Source: Candidatus Gastranaerophilales bacterium | GTDB taxonomy: Bacteria > Cyanobacteriota > Vampirovibrionia > Gastranaerophilales > Gastranaerophilaceae | Length of the DNA stretch: 64,000 nucleotides | Assembly: GCA_944324915.1 (NCBI GenBank) | Contig: CALUYD010000004.1 | Span: 62,001 to 126,000 of the forward strand | Direction: 5' to 3' | In this document: in pieces, positions 10,516 to 34,330 of the stretch | How the letters are laid out: each line of letters opens with the position of its first letter | How positions within the stretch are numbered: position 1 is the stretch's first letter | Made by a program: the position numbers and the translations under genes | The notes under the pieces: model-generated | Told to the model about the DNA's origin: nothing | Seen by the model: the letters and a program-made list of their open reading frames with translations, nothing else | Database searches by the model: none

Positions 10516-10588
<73 letters not shown>

Positions 10589-21421: not shown

Positions 21422-21446
21422 AAGCCCCTTAAATTGGGGCTTTTTT
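21421..21446. terminator. Bidirectional rho-independent terminator
   Basis: AAAGCCCC and GGGGCTTT form an 8-bp stem with loop TTAAATT, followed by seven T on the plus strand and preceded by A's, between two convergent genes. Confidence 0.85.
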
Positions 21447-24400
21447 TATTTCTTCGGAACAAATACGCTTACTGTATCTGTTAAGTTTATTTTTCTGTTA
21501 TCTTTTCTTACAATTTTACCGTCTTTAACGATATAACCGCTTTCTTTATTACCTTTATAATCAACTTTTAAAAGCTCTGTATTATCTTCAAAAGGACAAG
21601 CACCTTTATTATCTTTTATTGGAATTGCAGTTAATTCTTTTGATTTTAATTGAGCATTATCTTGCCAAGAAGCCTTTTTATTAGGTAAGCCTAGATTTGT
21701 TACAATGCTTACTGCTTCATTACCTTTTGAATTTTTACGATATATCGGCCATAATTGAAAACCGTCAGAATTTTTCATTGCTTGCGCTTTTTTAAAAACC
21801 AAATCTCTAACTTTTTTAAAATTTTCATGATTGCCGTTATTAGAATCAATTCCATATTCAGCAGGGGATAAATTATATCCTTTACCACTATTTACAACTT
21901 GATTTACAAAGTAACCAAATGCACCTAAGTTAACACCTTTTTTAAGTGCTTCATCATCATATTGTTGTAAACCAGAATACATTTCCAGAGAATATGGTGT
22001 ACCATCTCTTAAAACGCCAAGTCCTGGGAATTTATAAAGCCCTGATATATTATACATTTTATTGTAATAATCTTTGTATCTTTCATCTTCTTTTAAGTCA
22101 TGTAAAACTTCATTTCTGATACCAAGATATACGTTTTTAGATGGTGTTTCATAGCCTGTTTGAGCAAACTCGTTACCTCCAAACAATGTAGGAGTACCAA
22201 CACAAGCGGTCATTACCTGCCATAATCTTTCATATTGATTCATTGAATTTTTCATCATTGCATAATGAAAATCACGAACTTTATTTTCTAAATCTTTTTC
22301 ATTTTTTGCAATTCCTGCGTTTTCAATCATATCTTTAATTGTTCTCTCAAAAGGTCTAACGCCGAATGTTCTTGCTCTTTTAAAGCTATAATTGCCGCTT
22401 CCGTCAGCCTTTTTACCATTTACAAGATTTTGAAGAGAATCAAATAATTTAGCCTTATCACCTTCATTGAATGAGCTTGGAAGATTTTTAATTACCTCTA
22501 ACATAACCAAGCCTACGCCTGCTGCTTGAGGACAAATGTTTTTCAAATCATCTCTATCTGTTAAATAACGTATAGATTCTTTCGTTTGTTCATCTAAATT
22601 TTCAAGATTTTGCGCCATAAACACTGACATATTTAAAGGCAAAGTATGTAAAACAGAAGGTTTATCGTGGTTTCCAACAAACATATGAGAAAATATAGCA
22701 GCATCAGCTTGACTATATTTCATCAATTCTTCCATTTCTCTTTTTAAAATGCTTAAATCGCCCGCTTTAGCTGTTGTAGCTTTATAAGAATTAAAGTCAG
22801 AAACGGAATGTTCAGGATCAACCCCTGCAAAGATTGAAAATGCATTAAATCCTTTAGCATATTCAGATATTGTTGTAGAATTTGTTTCTTCAAGGAATTG
22901 ATTTTGTTTTGTATAAATTGGTTTTTCTTCGTATTTTTCAGGTTTACCTGCTTTTTTCCATGCTTGAGTTAATTTTGGATCAAATTTTTCTAATGCTTCT
23001 TCGCTATTTACATCACAAAATTCACCCAAAGATGTAACTTCGTTGATAATATAAGGCGAAGGGTTATTTTTTCTAATTCTTGCAATAAAACTTTTGAAGA
23101 AATTTTCAACCCCAGGTTGCATTTCATCAGATTGCCAAATTTGATTTACAGTTCTTTTTTCTGCTCTAACAGCATCTAAATCACCAATATCTTTAGCAGC
23201 ATCAAAACGCCAATTCAAACCGCCCTTACCATGTAAAACAATAGCTTCAGCCATTTTGAAATCTTTAATTGAAACATTTTTCAACTCAGCCTTTAACTTG
23301 CCTTCTAAATAGCCGACATTTGAAGAAGTTAAACCTTCTTTAATTCTTTCAATTACTTGATTTCTTTCATCTTTTGGAGAAACTGATGTATGTTTTTCTA
23401 AAGATTTTAAAGTAACTTCTTTTAATTTATCTAAATTAATTGTGCCATCACTTGTAATGGCTTCTTTATTTAAGGCAGTTACAAATATATATCTTAAAAT
23501 TTCATTACCGTAAGTCTTTTTAACATATTTAATATATTCTTGATTTTCAAGATATTCTTTAGGCACAATATCTTTTATTATAGTATCAAAAATATTTGCC
23601 ATTTTATCAAGACTATCACCTTGGAATAATTCTTGAGCAAACTGAGGTTGAGCAAAAATTGCACTTAATTCTTCGCTTGTTTCTAAAGTTTGCAATGGGA
23701 ATTTTTTAATTAATTCTTTAGTGTCATATTTTTCTAATAATACGATTGAATTAAATGTATTATTTTCAATAGATTTTTCTATTTCACCTAAAAGTTCACT
23801 TGAAATTCCGTTATTTTGGGCAATAGTCTTAAATTCACCGGATTTCTTTGCAGTTTCTAAAATTAAATGTGATTGAATTAACCCGCTCCAATAAGAAGCA
23901 ACGCCATATAAATAATTTCTTGCGTTAACGTATCCTTCTTGATTTTCAAGTTTTCCTGAAGGATTAGATAAATTCATTTTAATAATATCAGTATTACCAT
24001 CCCAGCAAGTAGCGCCTGCAACTTTACTTTTTGTTGTAAGTGAAAAATTATCAAAACTTACAAAACTTTTTAATCCGCCCAATCTTCTATCAATTTCTGT
24101 TGCTAATACTGCATTTTTATTTTTGAAAACTCTTAATCTGCTATCGTTTGGATCAACCTCAAAGGCATAAGGTTGCACTGAATCTTGATGTGAAGATATT
24201 TCATAACTATCTTTTGGAGTAGTATCATATTCAAAATGAAGTTTACCATCAACTTGGCTTTCAGGGCTCAATAATCTATCATCATATAATTGAATATATG
24301 TAGGTTTAGTTTTATCATAATTTTTACCCTTAGGGTTAACTATTCTAAAACCAATGTGTTCATAAGGATTTATATCTTGCTCTTCTATTGCATCAGGAAA

Positions 24401-25249
24401 TACACCAAGTGCAATTTTTCCATCAATTTTTAACATGTTATAAAATGGTGATTTTTCGCCCCATTTTAAAACGTGTTGCACCAATGGAGATTGAATACCT
24501 TGAGAAGTAAAAGCACCGTCTGCAACATAGCCTTTACCTCTTTTAAATAATTCAAAGTTGAATTCTTTAAAATCTTCTAAGTTATTACATTGATATTGGT
24601 TGTTTGGCCAATATTTATGGCTTGAAATTTTATCTACACCAATATCGGGAGTAGTCATAAAATATGTATAAGGCTCAAGTTCATCAGTATTAGTTAATAA
24701 CCAATTTAAACCTTTTATGCTACCGCCTAATTTATTAAAGTGATTTCTAACAAATTCTTTATTAGCTTGTGCTCTTAGTCCGCTTTTTTTATCAAAAACA
24801 ACGTCTGAATCAAGGAAACTATGACGCATTGTACCTGCTTTTGGGGAGATAAATACTTGTTGCCCTGGGTTTACAACGTTAATTTCGGTATTATTTTTAC
24901 CGAATTTCATAGTTTTAAATGGATCAAGAGCATATCTTACTTTTTGATTTTCACCTTCTATTCTATATCTATAACCAAAGCCGGCTCCTGCTTGTCTAAC
25001 CATGTCTTGAGGAAGCTCTACAACGTCTTTTTCGCTAAAGCCTAATGTATAAAATTTCTTTGGATCTTTAAATTGAGAGGTATTTTCATCTTTATCTAAA
25101 GGGAAAAATTCAAGATAAACTGTTTCATCTTGTCTGTGAGCGGGAGCATAAAATCTAAATACAGGCACTGTTTTAGCATTATAAGCGCCCTCTAAACCTT
25201 TAAAACTTATGCTTTCTTTTAGATTTATTTTGTTAATTGAAAAATCCAT
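21446..25249 (-). CDS. Very large GH13 (alpha-amylase superfamily) protein
   Basis: 1,267 residues, far longer than most GH13 enzymes. The N-terminal 160 or so residues look like a beta-rich CBM48-like domain (VPVFRFYAPAHRQDE near residue 28). The (beta/alpha)8 barrel is interrupted by long insertions. The GH13 catalytic set is visible: nucleophile Asp in NWRFDAAKDIG (near 683), acid/base Glu in IINEVTSLG (near 737) and third Asp in VGNHDKPSV (near 860). There is no signal peptide, so it should be cytosolic. Last gene of a four-gene operon, with an AAGGAAG ribosome binding site. Exact activity (branching, debranching or amylase-type) unknown. Confidence 0.8.
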   Translation of the reverse strand: MDFSINKINLKESISFKGLEGAYNAKTVPVFRFYAPAHRQDETVYLEFFPLDKDENTSQFKDPKKFYTLGFSEKDVVELPQDMVRQAGAGFGYRYRIEGENQKVRYALDPFKTMKFGKNNTEINVVNPGQQVFISPKAGTMRHSFLDSDVVFDKKSGLRAQANKEFVRNHFNKLGGSIKGLNWLLTNTDELEPYTYFMTTPDIGVDKISSHKYWPNNQYQCNNLEDFKEFNFELFKRGKGYVADGAFTSQGIQSPLVQHVLKWGEKSPFYNMLKIDGKIALGVFPDAIEEQDINPYEHIGFRIVNPKGKNYDKTKPTYIQLYDDRLLSPESQVDGKLHFEYDTTPKDSYEISSHQDSVQPYAFEVDPNDSRLRVFKNKNAVLATEIDRRLGGLKSFVSFDNFSLTTKSKVAGATCWDGNTDIIKMNLSNPSGKLENQEGYVNARNYLYGVASYWSGLIQSHLILETAKKSGEFKTIAQNNGISSELLGEIEKSIENNTFNSIVLLEKYDTKELIKKFPLQTLETSEELSAIFAQPQFAQELFQGDSLDKMANIFDTIIKDIVPKEYLENQEYIKYVKKTYGNEILRYIFVTALNKEAITSDGTINLDKLKEVTLKSLEKHTSVSPKDERNQVIERIKEGLTSSNVGYLEGKLKAELKNVSIKDFKMAEAIVLHGKGGLNWRFDAAKDIGDLDAVRAEKRTVNQIWQSDEMQPGVENFFKSFIARIRKNNPSPYIINEVTSLGEFCDVNSEEALEKFDPKLTQAWKKAGKPEKYEEKPIYTKQNQFLEETNSTTISEYAKGFNAFSIFAGVDPEHSVSDFNSYKATTAKAGDLSILKREMEELMKYSQADAAIFSHMFVGNHDKPSVLHTLPLNMSVFMAQNLENLDEQTKESIRYLTDRDDLKNICPQAAGVGLVMLEVIKNLPSSFNEGDKAKLFDSLQNLVNGKKADGSGNYSFKRARTFGVRPFERTIKDMIENAGIAKNEKDLENKVRDFHYAMMKNSMNQYERLWQVMTACVGTPTLFGGNEFAQTGYETPSKNVYLGIRNEVLHDLKEDERYKDYYNKMYNISGLYKFPGLGVLRDGTPYSLEMYSGLQQYDDEALKKGVNLGAFGYFVNQVVNSGKGYNLSPAEYGIDSNNGNHENFKKVRDLVFKKAQAMKNSDGFQLWPIYRKNSKGNEAVSIVTNLGLPNKKASWQDNAQLKSKELTAIPIKDNKGACPFEDNTELLKVDYKGNKESGYIVKDGKIVRKDNRKINLTDTVSVFVPKK

Positions 25250-25300
25250 TGCTCTTCCTTTATATTTATATATTTCCCTTTTTTGACTTTTTTTAAACTA

Positions 25301-27196
25301 TTATAAATATTGTTGTTGCAATACATTTTTAGAATCTGACAACTCTTGAATATTTGGAGTATCAATTTCAAATACGCAAGCTCTACTTGTTCCCAATTCA
25401 ACTGTTAGAGAACCATCTTTATTATTTTGGAACTTACATTCTTCGCCATAAGCAGGCATTAAGTTTTTGAATGTTTGATCAGGTTTCAAGCCCGGGATTT
25501 GAATTGTACCGCCAACTTTGAAGTTAACATTTCTATTGCCTACAAATAACAATGTTTTTCCGTCTTTATGTCTTGCAAATGCAATAATTTGAGGATTATT
25601 AGTAGGTAATATTATAAATGAACCCTTAGTTATAACATCTTGAGCATCTTTCATTTGAAGCAGGTTGTTACCCATTACTTTATTATATTCATTATTTCTC
25701 AATGCAAATGCAGCTCTTACTACATTTGAAATTTCAGGAGATTGACCACCGGGTTTTCTTGATTTATTAAAGATGTCCATTCTGCCTGTATGAACCGTAC
25801 ATTCATGGTTATCTGTTTGAGTTTCTTTAACCAAAGCATGATCATAAGGGAAAATGTAGTAATCGCCTGTTTGTACACCATCTGTCATATATGGATTTAC
25901 TTGAGGCAACATTGATTGCAGAGTTGTTGTAAACATTACCCAAGGAGCACCGCCATATAACATTGGTGATCTATCATCATGTGTTGCAAATGAACCGATT
26001 AAAGATTTTGGCTCACCGATTTTGTTGTTCATATCTATGTTTTCTTTAACATAGCTATATAAGTCATTAGCTTCTAACCAATCGCTATATATGTGATATT
26101 GACCATAATACGAATCAAAACCTACCTCTAAAAGCTCTTGAGGTCTGTCATAAGGCATATTTAATTGAGGTGAAGCATCTTCATGGGTGTATGTTTCAGC
26201 CAACCATGCAAATTGTGGGTCTTTAACTCTTGAATAATTGATAATTACATTCCAAAATTCAACAGGTTTCGCTCTGCCTACATCGGCTCTGATACCGTCC
26301 ATTCCTAAATCTACGCACATATCTACATATTTTTTATGTAAATCTAATACGTCTTTGTTTAGTTCTCTTGTTTGTTCATTTTCGAATGGCTTTAACATTC
26401 TGATATCTTGCCAGCCTTGAGGAACTTTTTCCTTGCCGTCAGCCCCTATTGCCATCATTTCAGGATGTTTTTTAGCATAATCAACGCTAGCACAAGACGG
26501 TAAGTCAAGCATTACTCTAATGCCACGTTTATGGCATTCATCAATAAAATATTTGCATTGAGCAAAAGCTACTTCAGGATCATTTTTATCCATTTTAACG
26601 AGCTTTTTGCCTGTTTTTTGTTCATATAATTGAGCAATTTTTTCTCTTGCTTCTTGAGGAGGATTTTCATCTACAAGCTCCGGATCAACTAACAAAAAGT
26701 CAGCCGGAGCATATAAAGAGCCTGCTGTACCCATAGCGTGAGTTTTTCCTGTCGGATGAATAGGAAGAACATGCAGAGTATTAAATCCTAAATCTTTAAT
26801 TTCGTTTAATCTTTCAATAGCGTTAACAAAATTTCCTGCTTGTTCATCACCTTGAATTAACTCATTTCCGTCTTTATCTTGAGCATTCATAATTCTTGGA
26901 ATAACAGCTAGAATATTGGCTCTATTATGAGTTAACATATCTCTTAAATCGTTTTTATAGCCGTATACTCTTTTTGAAGCCTCTGTTAGGCCAACTTGAG
27001 AAACAGGTTTTGCAGTTGAAATAGGTTGATTATTAGCCATAAGAGCTTTTAACAACATAGGGCTAACTGCAACAGATGTTTGAGTATTAACAACAGGTGC
27101 ATTATTTTGAATTGGTGTTGGAATTGGATTTTTCACAACAGGTTGCATTCCATATATTCTTGGTTGAATATAATTTACAGGTTGAACACTAATCAT
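25301..27196 (-). CDS. GH13 alpha-amylase-family enzyme with disordered N-terminal extension
   Basis: 631 residues. The first 60 or so are rich in Pro, Gln, Asn and Val and look disordered. The catalytic barrel shows HVLPIHPTG near residue 146, GIRVMLDLPS near 222, nucleophile Asp in GIRADVGRA near 303, Glu in AWLAETYT near 335 and FATHDDRSP near 403. The C-terminal beta domain ends near 610. No signal peptide. Its start overlaps the stop of the preceding membrane protein (TAATG) with a GGAGG ribosome binding site, so translation is coupled. Confidence 0.85.
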   Translation of the reverse strand: MISVQPVNYIQPRIYGMQPVVKNPIPTPIQNNAPVVNTQTSVAVSPMLLKALMANNQPISTAKPVSQVGLTEASKRVYGYKNDLRDMLTHNRANILAVIPRIMNAQDKDGNELIQGDEQAGNFVNAIERLNEIKDLGFNTLHVLPIHPTGKTHAMGTAGSLYAPADFLLVDPELVDENPPQEAREKIAQLYEQKTGKKLVKMDKNDPEVAFAQCKYFIDECHKRGIRVMLDLPSCASVDYAKKHPEMMAIGADGKEKVPQGWQDIRMLKPFENEQTRELNKDVLDLHKKYVDMCVDLGMDGIRADVGRAKPVEFWNVIINYSRVKDPQFAWLAETYTHEDASPQLNMPYDRPQELLEVGFDSYYGQYHIYSDWLEANDLYSYVKENIDMNNKIGEPKSLIGSFATHDDRSPMLYGGAPWVMFTTTLQSMLPQVNPYMTDGVQTGDYYIFPYDHALVKETQTDNHECTVHTGRMDIFNKSRKPGGQSPEISNVVRAAFALRNNEYNKVMGNNLLQMKDAQDVITKGSFIILPTNNPQIIAFARHKDGKTLLFVGNRNVNFKVGGTIQIPGLKPDQTFKNLMPAYGEECKFQNNKDGSLTVELGTSRACVFEIDTPNIQELSDSKNVLQQQYL

Positions 27197-29580
27197 TATT
27201 TAGCACCTCCGTTTTTTTCTTCCGGAAACTCTTTATCGATTTTACCAAACAACGGCTGTACTAATAAAGTCACAGCAACCAAAATAATTGTCATTGGAAG
27301 GAATGTATGTAACCAAATCTTATTATTACTTAATCTTTTTGCAAAATTTCTCAAATTATTCATTACGGAACTACATCTAGTATAATCCAATGCTTGATTT
27401 GTAGTATCCTTACCGTTCTCAAATATTGCATATATACTTTCAAGATATTTTTTAAGTCCTTTTCCTTTTTCTAATGAATCATCTGCCATACCAATAAACA
27501 TTTTTAATTTATCAGCTACATCTTTTTCTATTTCAGAAAATTTTTCAAAGTTAAATACTTCTTTAGCTACATCTTTAACGCTACCTTCGTTAAAAGCGTA
27601 TGCGCCATTTTTAAATACATTATAATCGCCATCATATATTGCTTTTTTGATTGCGCCTAAAACTTCTTTATCGCAACCATTAAACTCGCCATCAGCTAAT
27701 CTTCTTTCAAAATTTGCACATAATAACATTCTTATTCTTGTAGCATCTAAGTCTATTTTTTTGTTTTCAACAACATTAGATAAAATTTTTCTTGCAAATT
27801 CTTCATCGCCACCAAGAAGCGCTTTATTTAAGCCTTTTAAATCAATTCCATCTATTGAAGCCTCATCAATTGCAATTTGTGATAATGTATCTTTATCTTG
27901 CAATTGTTTAATAATATTTAAAACACTATCATCCATTTGTCCTAAAGTTACGGATTCTAAAAATGCTTTATAATCAGCATCTGTACCTTTTACAGCTTTA
28001 CTTACCAATTCTGACAAATAAGCAACAGCTTCTTTATCTTGTAAATCTTTCAATTTGAAATAATCAGGAGTTTTAAATCCAAGTCCGCTGAATACTTTTT
28101 TCATTGCTTTAGAATATTCTAAAGTTGAAGCAGATTCAGATTTTGAACCTACAACAGGATTTAATAAATCAGCGTATGCTTTTAATCTTGCTCTTAATTG
28201 TGCAACAGGACCTTTGTTATATGCTTCAACAAACTTAAAGAAATCCTTTTTATCTGAAATTGCATCAGCTTTTTTCATAACTTTTTCTTTAAATTCTTTA
28301 GAAAAGTCTAATTTTCCTAATTCATCCTTTAATTTTTGAATTGAAGGATTTGTATCCAACGCATTTTTAAGACTTGCTAATTTCATAGCGTCATCAACTG
28401 CTTCTTGCGCACCATCTATTGAAGAAACAGTTGCGCCAAGAGCTCCAAAAGCCCCATCTATTGGAGAAGCGGTTGCACCAAGAGCTTCAAAAGCACTATC
28501 TACACTTTTAATAGTGCAACTATCTAATATTTCATCAAGATTTAAATCATCAGTTTTTAAAGTAGCTAAACTATGATAAATATCTCTTAATTCTTCAATA
28601 ACCCCAAATGGTTTGAAATCTTTCAATGCATTAGCGTCATCTATATCTTTATATTTTAAAATAAAGTCAGTTGGGAATAGAGTTTTTGCAATATCTCTCA
28701 AAAATCCGCCTTCAAGAGGAGCGTCTTTAGCACTTTCAAGTATTGATGCTAATTCCTTTTCATTTCTTACTTCAGGTTTAACTGATTTTATGAAATCTAC
28801 AAAACCACCGTCATGGAATATCTTATTTACTTTATTTACATCATGAGCTACAACAGCTTTTTCAACAACAGGTTCAACATAATTACCTATAATTGAAGTT
28901 AATAAAGGAGTTGCAAAACCTGCTGTTGCCATCCATAAAGTTCTATTTTGAAGAGTTGTTTTTTGTATTTTTCTTTGTATTTTTTCTTTTCCGTTTTCAG
29001 AATCGTAATCAATTCCCGCTCTTTTTGCGTCTTTTCTTAATTGTTCTTCAGGATATGCATCCCAAACATAGAATTGATTATCTAAACCAAAATCTTTTTT
29101 ATCGCCTTGAGCGCTGATATATTTTCTATCAATTCTAAAACCATGAACTAATCTTGCAGGAATATTGATAAATAATTTTGGCCATAATGACATCATGCCA
29201 ATAAAAGTAGCTCCGCCTACATAGCTCATAATTGCATTTGTTTTTGTTTTAGATTTAAGAGCTAAAAATGACGCAATTAAAAATGCACCTAATTTTAAGC
29301 CTAAATCATTTATTCTACCAAGGCTATTATCACCCATTTCGCCTGTTTTAACGGTTTTAAAGAAATTTTTTACATCATTAAAATCATCTTTAATTGCTGT
29401 AATGGGATTTCCAAGCATGCCTTCATCAACCAACTTAGCCTTTGCTTCATTTGGTTTTACTTCGTTTGCTCTTTTTTGAAGCTCAACATAAGCTCTTTCA
29501 TGATGACTTTGAGTGCTTGGAGCTTGCTTATTAGTGCTAATATTTAATTTATTTTGTAAAATCGGACTTATATATGTCAT
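27196..29580 (-). CDS. Large membrane protein of unknown function in the GH13 operon
   Basis: 794 residues. Hydrophobic helices occur near 95-130 (LKLGAFLIASFLALKS, YVGGATFIGMMSLW), near 220-235 and at the C-terminal end (TFLPMTIILVAVTLLVQP). A long, charged, mostly helical middle lies between. A tandem repeat reading ALGATASPIDGA and ALGATVSSIDGA sits near residues 374-400. I use the ATG at 29580, which overlaps the upstream stop (TAATG) after GAGGTG. No family recognised. Operon position suggests it anchors or organises the two GH13 enzymes, an inference only. Confidence 0.65.
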   Translation of the reverse strand: MTYISPILQNKLNISTNKQAPSTQSHHERAYVELQKRANEVKPNEAKAKLVDEGMLGNPITAIKDDFNDVKNFFKTVKTGEMGDNSLGRINDLGLKLGAFLIASFLALKSKTKTNAIMSYVGGATFIGMMSLWPKLFINIPARLVHGFRIDRKYISAQGDKKDFGLDNQFYVWDAYPEEQLRKDAKRAGIDYDSENGKEKIQRKIQKTTLQNRTLWMATAGFATPLLTSIIGNYVEPVVEKAVVAHDVNKVNKIFHDGGFVDFIKSVKPEVRNEKELASILESAKDAPLEGGFLRDIAKTLFPTDFILKYKDIDDANALKDFKPFGVIEELRDIYHSLATLKTDDLNLDEILDSCTIKSVDSAFEALGATASPIDGAFGALGATVSSIDGAQEAVDDAMKLASLKNALDTNPSIQKLKDELGKLDFSKEFKEKVMKKADAISDKKDFFKFVEAYNKGPVAQLRARLKAYADLLNPVVGSKSESASTLEYSKAMKKVFSGLGFKTPDYFKLKDLQDKEAVAYLSELVSKAVKGTDADYKAFLESVTLGQMDDSVLNIIKQLQDKDTLSQIAIDEASIDGIDLKGLNKALLGGDEEFARKILSNVVENKKIDLDATRIRMLLCANFERRLADGEFNGCDKEVLGAIKKAIYDGDYNVFKNGAYAFNEGSVKDVAKEVFNFEKFSEIEKDVADKLKMFIGMADDSLEKGKGLKKYLESIYAIFENGKDTTNQALDYTRCSSVMNNLRNFAKRLSNNKIWLHTFLPMTIILVAVTLLVQPLFGKIDKEFPEEKNGGAK

Positions 29581-30614
29581 TAGCACACCTCATACTCTTT
29601 CTTTGTATCGACTTTGCTCTTCATATTGTCAGGCTTATGTTTAAAGCCTAAAATAGGAATTAAGCAAGTTAAGAATGTTGCAACTGCGGATGCGATAATT
29701 AAGCCCTTACCTAAGTGTTTGTATAAAGGTTTAATTAATTTACCTAAATTTGTATTTTTAACATCTATATCTCTACCCTTCCACAATTCAATAGCGCCTT
29801 CTTTTATTGCGCTTAAAATCGTTCTAGGTTGTTTTATTTTAATTCCCCCAAACGCATTTTGAGAGCCAAGAGCAACACCTGTTGCAGCTACTATATATTT
29901 TCCGATGTTTTCAAGAGCTGTTGCTCTGGCTTTAACGCCTCTAATTTTTTCACTCGCCATTTGGTTAGATGCATTCTTTTTATCTTTATAACCTACTTTT
30001 TCTACAATTCTGTCGTCATGATAATAAGCATTATTGTGATTTAATTCACCATCTTTTGTTAATAAATCACTACGATAGAATTGAACAGAATCATATACTC
30101 TAGGATATTGCGTTCTAACGAGTCCTTTTTCTTGACCGGGTTCCGGTAATTCATTTACTTTCTTAGTGTAGAATAAATCAAGATTAACACCGGTAAATGC
30201 ATTAATTACTGTTCTTGAAAGTTTTTGAAATGCCCATTTACCAGCTGCATATAATATAACGCCTGCTGCTGCTTGTTTAAAACTAATATTTGCAAATCTT
30301 GCATCGTCAGCGCTAAATTTATGATTTACAAGTCCGTATGAAGCCATTAACATCAAGCTACCAACTATATTTGGAACCATGCCTAATGATAAATATTCAT
30401 AAAAATCACTATTTTTAGAACCCGCAAAACCTTTAGGATAATACGTTAAAATATCGTTATAAAGTTTGTGAGCCCCTACTTTTACTCCCTCAAGCGGTCC
30501 TTGTTTATGAATATGAGTTTCGTATTTATAAAATTTCTCTTTCTTGTCCTTATCTGAAACAAGATATCCGACATTTGGAAGATTTTCTACATTTACACTT
30601 GCTACCGGTTGCAT
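29580..30614 (-). CDS. Membrane protein of unknown function, first gene of the GH13 operon
   Basis: 344 residues. Hydrophobic segments lie near residues 75-92 (MVPNIVGSLMLMASYGLV), 105-125, 235-250 and 310-330 (LIIASAVATFLTCLIPIL), with soluble charged parts between. The N-terminal LPNVGY motif (residues 12-17) recurs in the small protein at 49.6 kb. The ribosome binding site is GGGG. A TGn-extended -10 (TGTTAATAT, 30627-30635) lies upstream. No family recognised. Confidence 0.65.
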   Translation of the reverse strand: MQPVASVNVENLPNVGYLVSDKDKKEKFYKYETHIHKQGPLEGVKVGAHKLYNDILTYYPKGFAGSKNSDFYEYLSLGMVPNIVGSLMLMASYGLVNHKFSADDARFANISFKQAAAGVILYAAGKWAFQKLSRTVINAFTGVNLDLFYTKKVNELPEPGQEKGLVRTQYPRVYDSVQFYRSDLLTKDGELNHNNAYYHDDRIVEKVGYKDKKNASNQMASEKIRGVKARATALENIGKYIVAATGVALGSQNAFGGIKIKQPRTILSAIKEGAIELWKGRDIDVKNTNLGKLIKPLYKHLGKGLIIASAVATFLTCLIPILGFKHKPDNMKSKVDTKKEYEVC

Positions 30615-30783
30615 AAATACCCCAAAATATTAACACATTTTTTATAACACACATAAATCTCAAAATTTGCCTTTTTTGAGTAAATATTCTTAACAATAAT
30701 TAATAACGTAAAATATACACCTAATCTTAGTTACGAGGTTTTGACAATTATTAAATTCAACACCATTAACGAATATTTACCTG

Positions 30784-30813
30784 TTGCAAATAATACCAAA
30801 AATTTTGTAAAAT
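30784..30813 (+). promoter_or_regulatory. Promoter of the STAND-TPR gene, leaderless start
   Basis: TTGCAA (30784-30789), 18-base spacer, TAAAAT (30808-30813), then 6 bases to the ATG at 30820. No ribosome binding site. The 205-base gap to the divergent GH13 operon holds no other gene that I can support. Confidence 0.6.
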
Positions 30814-30819
30814 ATTATT

Positions 30820-33141
30820 ATGACACAAGGCTTTTTTCAATTTAATAATTCTATTATAAATGAAATAAGAAATTTTGCTACATCTTCTTTCGACTTACTC
30901 TTCATGAGTGGTCAAAGAGGTAGCGCAAAAAGCGAAACAATAGAAAAAATAATACCCGAATTAGAGGAGAATAACCTTGTTTTTCAGCACTTTTGCTTCG
31001 AGAATACAGTTATTGATGATTTTCTTTTAAATTTTTACGATTCGTTAAGAAATTTTTCAATTTTGCAAAAAATTTCTCTTAAAAAATTTTCAACTGACAA
31101 TTTTAAAGAAAAAGTAAGTCATTATTTTAAAACAATTGATGAAAATTGCATTATAATTGTTGAAAACTTTGAAAAAGTAGATTCAAACGTTGAAATTGTT
31201 GATTTTTTGTCGCACCTCGCAAGTTATGTAAATGTAAAAATTGTAATTGTTACAAGAAATCGCGAAAAAAATCTTTTCAGATTTAAAAAAATAAGAACAA
31301 AAAACCTTGAAATTAATGAAATTAATAAAGAAGACTTTAAATCAAGACTATCAATTCTAACAGAGCCTATGAGCCTTGATATTAAGGAAAAATTTTATGA
31401 AATAACTCAAGGATTAGAATTATTTCTTAAAATGAGCGTTAAATATTGCACAACAACAAACACTGCAATAGCTGATTTAATTGCTGAATATGAAAGAAAA
31501 AATCTTGGCTCTTATACATCTTATGAAGAATTTATTGTAACAAAATTTATTTCTCTTGTTCCTGCAATATATAAAAATTTATTAAAAACCTTATCTGCAA
31601 TATCTCATCCTGTGAGTATTGATTTTTTAAACAGATATAAATTAGGTAATGTTTCATATATTGAATATTTGTCTAAAAATTTCTTGGTTAATAAATTTAA
31701 AGACGAATACTATGTAAAAGACTATTTTAGGCAATACATAACAAAAAATTTCTCTATTCAAGAAAAAGTAACTTATTACAAAAATTTAGTTGAAATTTAT
31801 GAAAATGAATTAACAAAAAGCCCTAAAGACCGATTAATCAGACTTTCGAGAGAAGCAATAAGAAAAGAAATAGAAAATTTTAAAATCAAAATTCCTTCAA
31901 TCAATTCAAACGAAAAAAATGCTTTTTCATATCTTGGAGTTAATTCATCTCCTTGGCAAGATGAAAAAACAATTCAAAAAACAAAACTCTCCGAAAAGCT
32001 GAATAAAATCAAAGAAAGAAGAAATTTCTTAATCAAAGAACAAACAAAAATTGAAAAATTTGATAAAGCTCAACTCAAACAAAATCGAGAAGAAAGAGAA
32101 AAAAATAAACGCTTTATTATTGATTTAATTAATTCTTCAAGAGATTTTGCAAAAAATTATCAATATCAAGATGCTCTAAACGAATTAAAAAGAGCCCAAG
32201 AGGTTGATTTTGAAAACGAATTTCAAATTGAAATTCTGATTTTGATTGCAAAAAATAATGAAGCGCTAAATCGTACAAATCTTTCTTTGGAATATTACCA
32301 AAAAGCCCTTGATTTGGCCAAAGAAAAAAATGATTCAAGAATTTGCGAAATAGAATTTTTAATAGCAAGACTTGAAAAAAACACCTTTAAAATTGATGAA
32401 GCCAAAGAAAAATTCAGAGAAATTATCAAAAATAAATCTAATTCAATACACTTTATCGCAAAAGCAAACCTTGAATTAGGAGAAATTGAAGAAGCAAATT
32501 CAAACTTAGAAGAAGCAATAAAATGCTATAAATCAGCTCTTGATTTATCTTTAGGCAAAGACAAAAATCTTGTTTGCAAATGTTATTACAGGCTTGCTGT
32601 TTTATATGATGAACATCAAGACTACCAAAACGCTATAAAATATTATCAAAAAAATTATCAAACAAGCTCAGAGCGAAAAGAAAACAAATATTATTCAGTA
32701 TCTTTAACAAACCTTGCTTCAATTTATAACGAACAAGGAAGATTAAAAGATTCAATTGATTATCTGAAACTTGCTCTAATTTATGACGGCGAAGTGGATG
32801 ATTGGGAAAATATGTATTTTTCTCAAAAAGAATTAGCCAAATTATATCAAAGATTTGATGAAACAAGCGCAATCGGTTATTATAAACAAGCTCTAAACAG
32901 TGCTAAAAAATTAAATGATACATTTAAAGAAGCACTTGTTCATTTTGAATTGGGCGAGTTCTTCTATGACAGAGGAGAAGATGAAAAAGCGCTCGTTAAT
33001 TTCTATAATGCAAAAATTATCTTGAAAAAAATTCAAGATAATGAGAATATTTTAAGAGTTGAATCTCGAATAAAAGATATAAAAATGAGGCTTGATGATA
33101 CAGCATTCAGCTTAATTTCTCAAAAATATGATAACATCTAA
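30820..33141 (+). CDS. STAND-type ATPase with C-terminal TPR repeats, MalT-like without DNA-binding domain
   Basis: 773 residues. The N-terminal P-loop-like motif is SGQRGSAKS (near residue 29), where the usual GK[ST] is AKS. A Walker-B-like CIIIVENFE lies near 109 and a sensor segment KIVIVTRNR near 135. A helical region follows, then TPR repeats from about residue 450 to 760 (for example ALNELKRAQEV, AIKCYKSALDLS, AIKYYQKNY, AIGYYKQAL). MalT and related STAND regulators share the NTPase-TPR plan, but no helix-turn-helix is visible here. It is divergent from the GH13 operon and overlaps rsmG by 14 bases. Protein-protein signalling is a guess. Confidence 0.6.
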   Translation: MTQGFFQFNNSIINEIRNFATSSFDLLFMSGQRGSAKSETIEKIIPELEENNLVFQHFCFENTVIDDFLLNFYDSLRNFSILQKISLKKFSTDNFKEKVSHYFKTIDENCIIIVENFEKVDSNVEIVDFLSHLASYVNVKIVIVTRNREKNLFRFKKIRTKNLEINEINKEDFKSRLSILTEPMSLDIKEKFYEITQGLELFLKMSVKYCTTTNTAIADLIAEYERKNLGSYTSYEEFIVTKFISLVPAIYKNLLKTLSAISHPVSIDFLNRYKLGNVSYIEYLSKNFLVNKFKDEYYVKDYFRQYITKNFSIQEKVTYYKNLVEIYENELTKSPKDRLIRLSREAIRKEIENFKIKIPSINSNEKNAFSYLGVNSSPWQDEKTIQKTKLSEKLNKIKERRNFLIKEQTKIEKFDKAQLKQNREEREKNKRFIIDLINSSRDFAKNYQYQDALNELKRAQEVDFENEFQIEILILIAKNNEALNRTNLSLEYYQKALDLAKEKNDSRICEIEFLIARLEKNTFKIDEAKEKFREIIKNKSNSIHFIAKANLELGEIEEANSNLEEAIKCYKSALDLSLGKDKNLVCKCYYRLAVLYDEHQDYQNAIKYYQKNYQTSSERKENKYYSVSLTNLASIYNEQGRLKDSIDYLKLALIYDGEVDDWENMYFSQKELAKLYQRFDETSAIGYYKQALNSAKKLNDTFKEALVHFELGEFFYDRGEDEKALVNFYNAKIILKKIQDNENILRVESRIKDIKMRLDDTAFSLISQKYDNI

Positions 33142-33760
33142 ACAAATTGACATTTTAAAAAAAGAACTTAATTTCACTTTGGATGAAAATACAATCCAAA
33201 AGTTAGACCTATGGGAAAAAATATTTAAAGAATATAATTCCCACACAAACCTTATGAGCAGAGGGGATATTGAGGTTTTATTTGAAAAGCATGTTTTTGA
33301 TTCTTTAGCTATTTTAAAATGGGAAAAATTTAAAAATCATAAAAAAATTTTAGATGTCGGTACAGGTGGCGGTTTTCCAAGCGTTATTTTAGCGATTTGT
33401 TTTTCTGATATTAAAGTAATAGCTAACGATTCAAGAATTAAAAAGATAAATTTTATAAAAGAAATAAAAGAAAAATTATCGCTGAATAACCTTATAATTG
33501 AATATAACAGAGTTGAAGATATTGAAAATCTTGAAGTTGATTTAATTGTTTCAAGAGCAGTCGGAAAAATGCTTGATGTGTATGAGCTATCTAAAAAACA
33601 TCTAGCTAAAAACGGAGATTTTTTAATCTATAAAGCAAAATTATCTGATGAAGAAATTAAAAATTTCAAGAAAAAATATAAAAACGCAAATTTTGAAATT
33701 ATACCTTACAAATTGCCTCTTGAAGAAAATTACGAAAGAAATTTAATCCTCTTGAAATAA
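33128..33760 (+). CDS. rsmG: 16S rRNA (guanine-N7) methyltransferase RsmG
   Basis: RsmG methylates G527 of 16S rRNA. The 210-residue protein has the GidB pattern: NLMSRGDIEVLFEKHVFDS near residue 38, SAM motif ILDVGTGGGFPSVILAI near 72 and SRAVGKML near 139. The start lies inside the end of the preceding gene, implying coupling. Its 3' end overlaps the convergent nuclease gene by 18 bases. Confidence 0.95.
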   Translation: MITSKQIDILKKELNFTLDENTIQKLDLWEKIFKEYNSHTNLMSRGDIEVLFEKHVFDSLAILKWEKFKNHKKILDVGTGGGFPSVILAICFSDIKVIANDSRIKKINFIKEIKEKLSLNNLIIEYNRVEDIENLEVDLIVSRAVGKMLDVYELSKKHLAKNGDFLIYKAKLSDEEIKNFKKKYKNANFEIIPYKLPLEENYERNLILLK

Positions 33761-34330
33761 TTTTTGTATTATTTTTTCAATTCTTTCTTTATATTTTTCA
33801 TCATTTAGATAATCAACCTCAACAATATCAAGTTTTTCTAAAGATAAATAGCGCATTTTGATGTTTTTTGTATTAAAAATTTTACTTGCACAATACATAT
33901 AAACAACGCTTTGAAGGTCATAAGAAGGGTTTTTTGGCAAATTCAAAGTTTTCCAATCATAAATTATATAAAAATCATCCTTTTTATAAATAGCATCAAA
34001 TCTGCCTGTTAGATAATAATTCCAGCCGTCTAAATCCTCTTTAATTAAAAAAGGGTATTCAGTATGAATAAAATATTTTCTTTCATCTTTTAAAATTTTT
34101 TCTAAATTTTGCCAAACAATTTTTTCTTTTTCATCTAGCGAATTAATCATTTTATCAACATCAAAATTATTTATATAATAGCAAATTAAAGCGTGAAATT
34201 TTTGCCCTAAAACGGCCCTATCATCCTTTTTAAACAATGAAAGATTATAGATAAATTTATCCTTAAATTCATCTAAATTTTTTTCTAAAATTTTTAGAGA
34301 ATGTGCGCTGAATGTATCTATTTTATTCAT
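33743..34330 (-). CDS. Stand-alone PD-(D/E)XK (RecB-type) nuclease
   Basis: 195 residues. The nuclease core GRFDAIYKKDDFYIIYDWKT near residue 105 supplies the metal-binding Asp residues and catalytic Lys. QSVVYMYCA near 138 matches the RecB motif QL..Y. Such domains normally form the C-terminal end of AddB, AddA or RecB. Here it is separate, overlapping the stop of the helicase gene by 4 bases (ATGA), so the two products probably work together in end resection. Confidence 0.85.
   Translation of the reverse strand: MNKIDTFSAHSLKILEKNLDEFKDKFIYNLSLFKKDDRAVLGQKFHALICYYINNFDVDKMINSLDEKEKIVWQNLEKILKDERKYFIHTEYPFLIKEDLDGWNYYLTGRFDAIYKKDDFYIIYDWKTLNLPKNPSYDLQSVVYMYCASKIFNTKNIKMRYLSLEKLDIVEVDYLNDEKYKERIEKIIQKLFQED

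Follow-up and report, generated by a model that had tools for sequence, protein, structure and literature searches.

The window analysed here, a stretch of 64,000 nucleotides of contig CALUYD010000004.1 from a Candidatus Gastranaerophilales bacterium, contains the gene of a 773-aa STAND-type protein with TPR repeats, which faces a four-gene set on the opposite strand and is followed on its own strand by rsmG (Table 1). The reading frames of the STAND protein and rsmG overlap by 14 bp, which is absent from an earlier interpretation of this locus made from the letters of the DNA (the sequence-only reading). The latter had assigned the STAND gene to positions 30615-33141; the forward-strand gene is real, but its ORF starts at 30820, and the more distant start takes in the 205-bp divergent intergenic region. 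No Rfam family was found in this region (30615-30819), and positions 30500-34000 contain 19 promoter-like sites, as compared with 19.5 in shuffled sequences. The sole Rfam match in the whole window is a tRNA at 10516-10588 (+).

Table 1. Features of the locus, in positions of the 64,000-nt window
Feature	Positions	Strand	Basis
1267-aa remote GH13-like protein	21446..25249	-	profile match to alpha-amylases, best E 4.2e-5
GH13 protein, 631 aa	25301..27196	-	alpha-amylase/GlgE matches
796-aa protein	27196..29586	-	no Pfam match
344-aa protein facing the STAND gene in GH13-linked genera	29580..30614	-	no Pfam match
Divergent intergenic region between the STAND gene and the GH13 set, 205 bp	30615..30819		no Rfam match; promoter-like sites not above chance
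STAND-type TPR protein, 773 aa	30820..33141	+	ORF, homologues, structure model
N-terminal segment, residues 1-24 (MTQGFFQFNNSIINEI...); lowest divergence within the genus	30820..30891	+	divergence
P-loop nucleotide-binding domain, residues 25-181	30892..31362	+	model secondary structure, structural matches
Degenerate Walker A GQRGSAKS, residues 31-38	30910..30933	+	motif alignment
Walker B strand CIIIVEN, E115 in place of the expected D	31147..31167	+	motif alignment
Helical domain, residues 182-246; GxP motif is GLE at 198-200	31363..31557	+	motif alignment
Winged-helix domain of the STAND core, residues 247-312	31558..31755	+	models
Segment after the winged helix with R338-x4-S343-R344 (31831-31851)	31756..31893	+	motif alignment
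Linker, residues 359-420, partly of low confidence (pLDDT < 50 at 362-385 and 404-416)	31894..32079	+	model
TPR superhelix, residues 421-773	32080..33138	+	Pfam; matches to LGN/Pins TPR domains
rsmG, 16S rRNA m7G527 methyltransferase gene, conserved partner	33128..33760	+	TIGR00138 7.3e-40; synteny

The combination of a STAND-like domain with TPR repeats, proposed in the sequence-only reading, is borne out by the ORF, its homologues, Pfam and structural matches. Homologues at E <= 0.001 were found in 39 of 39 relatives searched, with the match in one of them (G038) covering the TPR part alone. The TPR repeats of the window protein match Pfam TPR_12 at 2.3e-21, and TPR_MalT at 7.7e-8, yet the latter match is below the cut-off of that model. 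The profile search for NACHT/AP-ATPase relatives gave for the window copy a single weak STAND match in Pfam (NPHP3_N, 0.08), but six of nine orthologues scanned pass the cut-off of a P-loop/STAND-type family (AAA_22, AAA_16, AAA_35, NACHT, NPHP3_N or nSTAND6), while the remaining three (L036, L157, and L159) have no such family above the Pfam cut-off.

The full-length AlphaFold model of the window protein (50 sequences; pLDDT 81.5, pTM 0.48) predicts a P-loop domain, a helical domain, and a winged helix in the order and fold typical of STANDs, followed by a low-confidence linker and a C-terminal TPR superhelix, that is, a MalT-like core and then a TPR-type sensor; residues 1-359 modelled alone gave pLDDT 88.2 and pTM 0.86. 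Foldseek ranked 6mfv (PH0952, a STAND with TPR sensor; E 5.0e-15) first for the full-length model and, for the core model, CED-4 first (1.6e-11), 6mfv second (2.1e-11), and 8bob of the maltose system seventh (7.6e-10). When core residues 1-359 were compared with the use of VIA-align, 8bob chain C (Z 23.3), which we take to be MalT from the entry title and the match, PH0952 (23.1), and Apaf-1 (23.0) tied on top; NB-ARC proteins, STANDs too, came next at about 19-20, and ORC/Cdc6 and others at 16.3 and below. Given this tie, the MalT likeness claimed earlier is real at the level of fold and is common to other STANDs. Fold likeness by itself is no demonstration of function.

No helix-turn-helix family matched the window protein in Pfam or NCBIfam up to E 1, and the full-length model ends in TPR-type helices at residue 771, with no DNA-binding domain after the TPRs, in agreement with the sequence-only reading, which had seen no helix-turn-helix. 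A hidden DNA-binding domain, sought in Pfam, NCBIfam, and the models, was likewise not found; the winged helix at about residues 247-312 is, in the models, part of the STAND core. Neither was any effector domain of its own, including a nuclease, found in the window protein. The suggestion that it signals through protein contacts is plausible.

The window copy differs from its relatives in the nucleotide-binding motifs. These were compared in 101 proteins, of which 17 represent other orders of the class, 16 other families within the order, and 68 the window's family; the last comprise 19 without GH13 linkage, 21 from other GH13-linked genera, and 28 from the window's genus, where members of the named set (see below) and L153 were assigned to the two latter groups by identity, gene order, and tree, and not by taxonomic label. 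The canonical Walker A motif, GxxxxGK[ST], occurs in 31 of 33 proteins from outside the family and in 18 of 68 within it, and is absent from the window copy, whose P-loop, GQRGSAKS, was read correctly before. The reported deviation from the GKS ending also stands, as GK[ST] is present in 15/17 proteins of other orders, 16/16 of other families of the order, 11/19 of the family without GH13 linkage, 6/21 of other GH13-linked genera, and 1/28 of the window's genus. Position 36 is G in one of the 28 genus copies and K37 is present in all 28; the P-loop lysine is kept in 100 of the 101 proteins, including 68/68 in the window's family. The Walker B aspartate (30/33 outside the family and 29/68 within; in the same order of groups 16/17, 14/16, 7/19, 21/21, and 1/28) is replaced by glutamate in the window copy (E115) and in 27 of the 28 genus copies. 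The GxP motif, which is among the residues contacting adenosine in PH0952 (PMC6468293), is GLE in the window copy and is found in 29/33 proteins outside the family (15/17 of other orders, 14/16 of other families of the order) but in 0/68 within it (0/19, 0/21, and 0/28). The R338-x4-S343-R344 signature is complete in 84/84 copies of the order and in 0/17 from other orders, while R338 alone is present in 101/101, including all 17 of the latter.

In a quick tree of 61 selected rows of the 101, with SH-aLRT support only and a weakly supported placement of L153, the STAND protein follows the groups, and the window's family is nested inside the order. The intact motifs thus look ancestral, and the odd P-loop appears to be one step of a family-wide erosion. 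As the window copy fails Walker A, Walker B, and GxP, while most relatives from outside the family pass all three, it can be regarded as a degenerate STAND descendant. The mean divergence among the 28 sequences of the genus is 0.185 in residues 1-24, 0.275 in the R-SR segment, 0.308 in the P-loop domain, 0.381 in the winged helix, 0.405 in the helical domain, 0.411 in the TPRs, and 0.515 in the linker. Judging by these sequences, constraint evidently remains in the window's genus, although catalysis is doubtful.

The STAND profile has hits at E <= 1e-15 in every one of the 192 genomes of the order, although the weakest hits (1e-20 to 1e-27, such as those in G083, G047, G049, G038, and G043) may represent other TPR proteins; rsmG is above the TIGR00138 cut-off in 189 of these genomes. 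In all 119 genomes that appear among the best 150 matches of both searches of the 192, rsmG directly follows the STAND gene, in the same direction, with a distance of -22 to 153 bp between the profile ends. The window's genus contributes one of its 11 genomes to the 119 and is covered by fetched loci and the named set. Among the 73 genomes outside the 119, 23 were inspected on fetched stretches or in the window (G000, G007, G009, G023, G024, G025, G028, G029, G030, G031, G034, G036, G038, G045, G055, G065, G113, G117, G127, G133, G169, G170, and G193), and the pair is adjacent in 21. The two exceptions, G031, where the STAND gene is apart from rsmG, and G038, where rsmG is present without the STAND gene, indicate that the link is not obligatory. 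The only three of the 192 genomes without an rsmG hit (G083, G047, and G049) are among the five with the weakest STAND hits, and this co-absence may reflect co-loss or assembly gaps (G047 and G049 consist of about 300-330 contigs, G083 of about 10).

The fetched neighbourhoods gave a similar picture, with the pair present in 13 of 14 from other families of the order, in 20 of 20 from further genera of the family, and in 6 of 6 from the window's genus. In the named genomes, which were selected for their likeness to the window's clade, rsmG is the next ORF in 49 of 50, and in the fiftieth it stands behind a split STAND ORF. No STAND-RsmG fusion was found, the listed rsmG frames of the order being of 261 aa at most. 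The STAND and RsmG protein distances correlate over 98 loci (Spearman 0.93), a value that common descent alone can give.

A class-wide search extended the pairing to other orders: families f9, f14, and f15 contain homologues, most of which have 900 to 1000 aa. The two genes are divergent in 15 of 15 fetched loci from other orders that hold both (L159 with an ORF between them). Of 16 genomes outside the order with profile hits, 12 have the STAND gene divergent to rsmG, two end at a contig edge (L181 and L182), and two of family f8 (G237 and G285) contain a 55-position match alone, G237 having no STAND gene beside rsmG; G219, G224, and G246 were found solely with a wider profile around rsmG. When 18 further loci of the class were selected around rsmG, 14 of them, from families f8, f10, f11, f12, and f13, proved to have no STAND gene next to it. 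As the divergent group is the outgroup, the tree does not tell which orientation is ancestral. Outside the class, where photosynthetic relatives were sought, 18 genomes of the phylum gave weak hits; on three inspected stretches (L103-L105) no rsmG was found near them, and one of these hits is a regulator with a BTAD domain. In family f8, rsmG faces a different large protein (L168, 2836-5772 (-); L172, 6824-10402 (+)), whose DnaJ-domain match is weak and does not reach the Pfam cut-off, and may thus have another neighbour of interest.

In 53 of the 55 loci inspected (40 of the order and 15 of other orders), the two genes are adjacent; L159 has an ORF of 173 codons between them, and L038 is without rsmG on its stretch, so that the pair is kept in 53 of 54 loci holding both. 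The flanking ORFs, defined mechanically, form 20 clusters next to the STAND gene and 39 next to rsmG. The pair is thus the constant element and its surroundings are not.

Results of our comparison of gene neighbourhoods point, with moderate confidence, to the window protein as an RsmG-linked STAND-type protein that is functionally tied to RsmG, with the two probably acting in one process; direct physical contact between them is a more tentative proposal. The constancy of rsmG as a partner, the restriction of the GH13 arrangement to a few genera, and the change of outer neighbours argue for such a role and against that of a GH13-specific regulator. By multimerising, STANDs form hubs for the activation of target macromolecules (PMC6468293), and RsmG methylates N7 of G527 in helix 18 of 16S rRNA (PMC10521367). 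The TPR superhelix would sense a partner or ligand, which would open or stabilise the MalT/Apaf-1-like core, and the protein would act on RsmG or on its substrate 30S particle, tuning G527 methylation; an action in trans is proposed because no recognisable effector domain is present in the STAND protein. With its nucleotide switch eroded, the protein of the window's family may serve as a scaffold with weak or static nucleotide binding instead of a hydrolysing switch. It is possible, although we put it forward as speculation, that a STAND/NLR-type switch became dedicated to rRNA modification via RsmG, that the pairing predates the split of Gastranaerophilales from the other orders, and that in the family the ATPase decayed to a pseudo-STAND scaffold while the partnership persisted. 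No description of a STAND-rsmG pair was found in our literature searches.

Adjacency can persist for transcriptional reasons, and the STAND protein might be a passive neighbour with an unrelated housekeeping role, kept at its place by a shared promoter region and translational coupling in the order. The overlap of the two genes in 88 of 92 tandem loci, an upper bound since ORF starts were taken as the longest possible, and a set in which at least nine genomes were counted twice, would make separation costly, and the genomes in which the genes are apart (G031) or the STAND gene is absent (G038) are also consistent with this explanation. However, the flanking genes turn over while the pair stays, and one shared transcript cannot explain the pairing, since the pair is divergent in other orders. 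We consider a passive association rather unlikely.

Divergent or operonic placement is typical of transcriptional regulators, and the STAND gene is either in tandem with or divergent to rsmG. Its product could regulate rsmG by binding DNA via the winged helix or, in other orders, via a basic N-terminus. The class-level homologues (L092-L102 and L156-L159) contain a conserved basic N-terminus of about 60 residues with a net charge of +3 to +9 (10 of 17 copies counted), roughly FIxxxVIERLxxGxFVPxRR...DRRxxLSPLxVTKRCIRYEPxVF, which could be a contact with nucleic acid or the ribosome. A profile of this N-terminus gave, in 292 genomes of the phylum (which may not include f9, f14, and f15), one match, in the order itself. 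The regulation of rsmG is also favoured by the role of MalT as a regulator and by the putative role of PH0952 as another (PMC6468293). On the other hand, the winged helix is a standard element of the STAND core, the models contain no extra DNA-binding domain, and promoter-like sites are no more frequent around the gene than expected by chance. Proteins of the window's order were not seen to carry the long basic N-terminus, those of the genus starting with a short conserved segment instead. The regulation of rsmG transcription seems an unlikely function.

The idea of the sequence-only reading, a MalT-like regulator standing head to head with two GH13 genes, agrees with the MalT-like fold and with the head-to-head arrangement in 47 of 48 named close relatives with an upstream ORF, a set chosen by clade similarity. 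Two GH13-type genes are indeed in the facing set, but the gene directly facing the STAND gene encodes the 344-aa protein and is neither of them. The window copy of the 1267-aa protein has no Pfam match and no single-sequence PDB match, and one of seven members matches Alpha-amylase at 7.1e-5. The four genes (21446-30614, -) stay together in genera where they face the STAND gene. Among the 121 genomes represented within the best 150 matches of both the STAND and GH13 searches, of which the best GH13 match per genome was considered, a GH13 gene is near and divergent in 20 (genera g1, g31, g35, and g40, and one case in g20 with about 9 kb between the two) and not in the other 101; in these searches the conserved neighbour is rsmG and not GH13. 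Conservation of the head-to-head order had been set beforehand as a test of the idea, and the order proved not to be conserved in relatives: a GH13 gene is near the STAND gene in three of the fetched neighbourhoods from 20 other genera of the family and in none of the 14 from other families of the order, so that the arrangement is missing from 31 of 34 neighbourhoods outside the genus. The STAND gene is far more widespread than this arrangement, which needs two changes on the tree, and its product has no effector domain and, in the window's genus, eroded nucleotide motifs. The GH13 regulator, which we consider improbable, was rejected as the main role of the protein since the arrangement is confined to a few genera. 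Another run of genes stands divergent to the STAND gene in nine genera of the family (L051, L053-L055, L057-L060, and L070): its first product looks exported, and a class II aldolase-like and, in most of the nine, an LpxB-like protein are also encoded, all named by eye from the N-termini.

An anti-phage, Avs-like sensor is hardly credible: Avs3 and Avs4 are among the structural matches, via the common core fold, but the gene is inherited order-wide (the best 150 matches come from 150 different genomes), its tree follows the groups, and no nuclease or other effector domain was found. PADLOC was uninformative: for the four proteins scanned it gave generic TPR models along with weak ones of P-loop or unrelated type, and no Avs model.

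RsmG is usually treated as a housekeeping enzyme. Its pairing with the STAND gene is the more interesting point of this locus, the GH13 link being secondary, and hints at uncharacterised control of ribosome modification in a gut-dwelling cyanobacterial relative. If the STAND protein were a dedicated partner, a large group of gut bacteria, most of them uncultured, would sense and tune the modification of G527; loss of RsmG leads to low-level streptomycin resistance in several bacteria (PMC10521367). The series of STAND cores, from intact to eroded beside an unchanged neighbour, is also a natural experiment on the STAND without ATPase motifs. Were the link passive, the finding would still be a correction, as the gene is not primarily that of a maltose-type regulator.

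Among known systems, the window protein shares the P-loop/helical/winged-helix core with MalT, the E. coli maltose regulator (8bob; Z 23.3, rmsd 4.1, 328 aligned), at 8% identity over the aligned core. MalT carries a C-terminal LuxR-type helix-turn-helix, while none was found in the window protein, which, unlike MalT, has lost GxP and strict Walker A and has rsmG, not maltodextrin genes, as its conserved neighbour. PH0952 of Pyrococcus horikoshii (6mfv) combines the same core (Z 23.1, rmsd 4.0, 302 aligned) with a TPR sensor. This putative transcription regulator also has an arm module and GxP (PMC6468293), whereas the window protein is without GxP, and its low-confidence linker appears in the model to stand where part of the PH0952 arm would lie. 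Apaf-1, CED-4, and NB-ARC proteins have the same core fold (Apaf-1 3sfz, Z 23.0, and 1z6t, 20.4; NRC1, 20.0) but other sensors and effector domains, and have no functional link to the window protein. As compared with rsmG (gidB) of other bacteria, that of the order is ordinary in the 189 of 192 genomes where it exceeds the TIGR00138 cut-off; what distinguishes the rsmG of the window from those at 14 inspected loci of other class families is its STAND-type neighbour.
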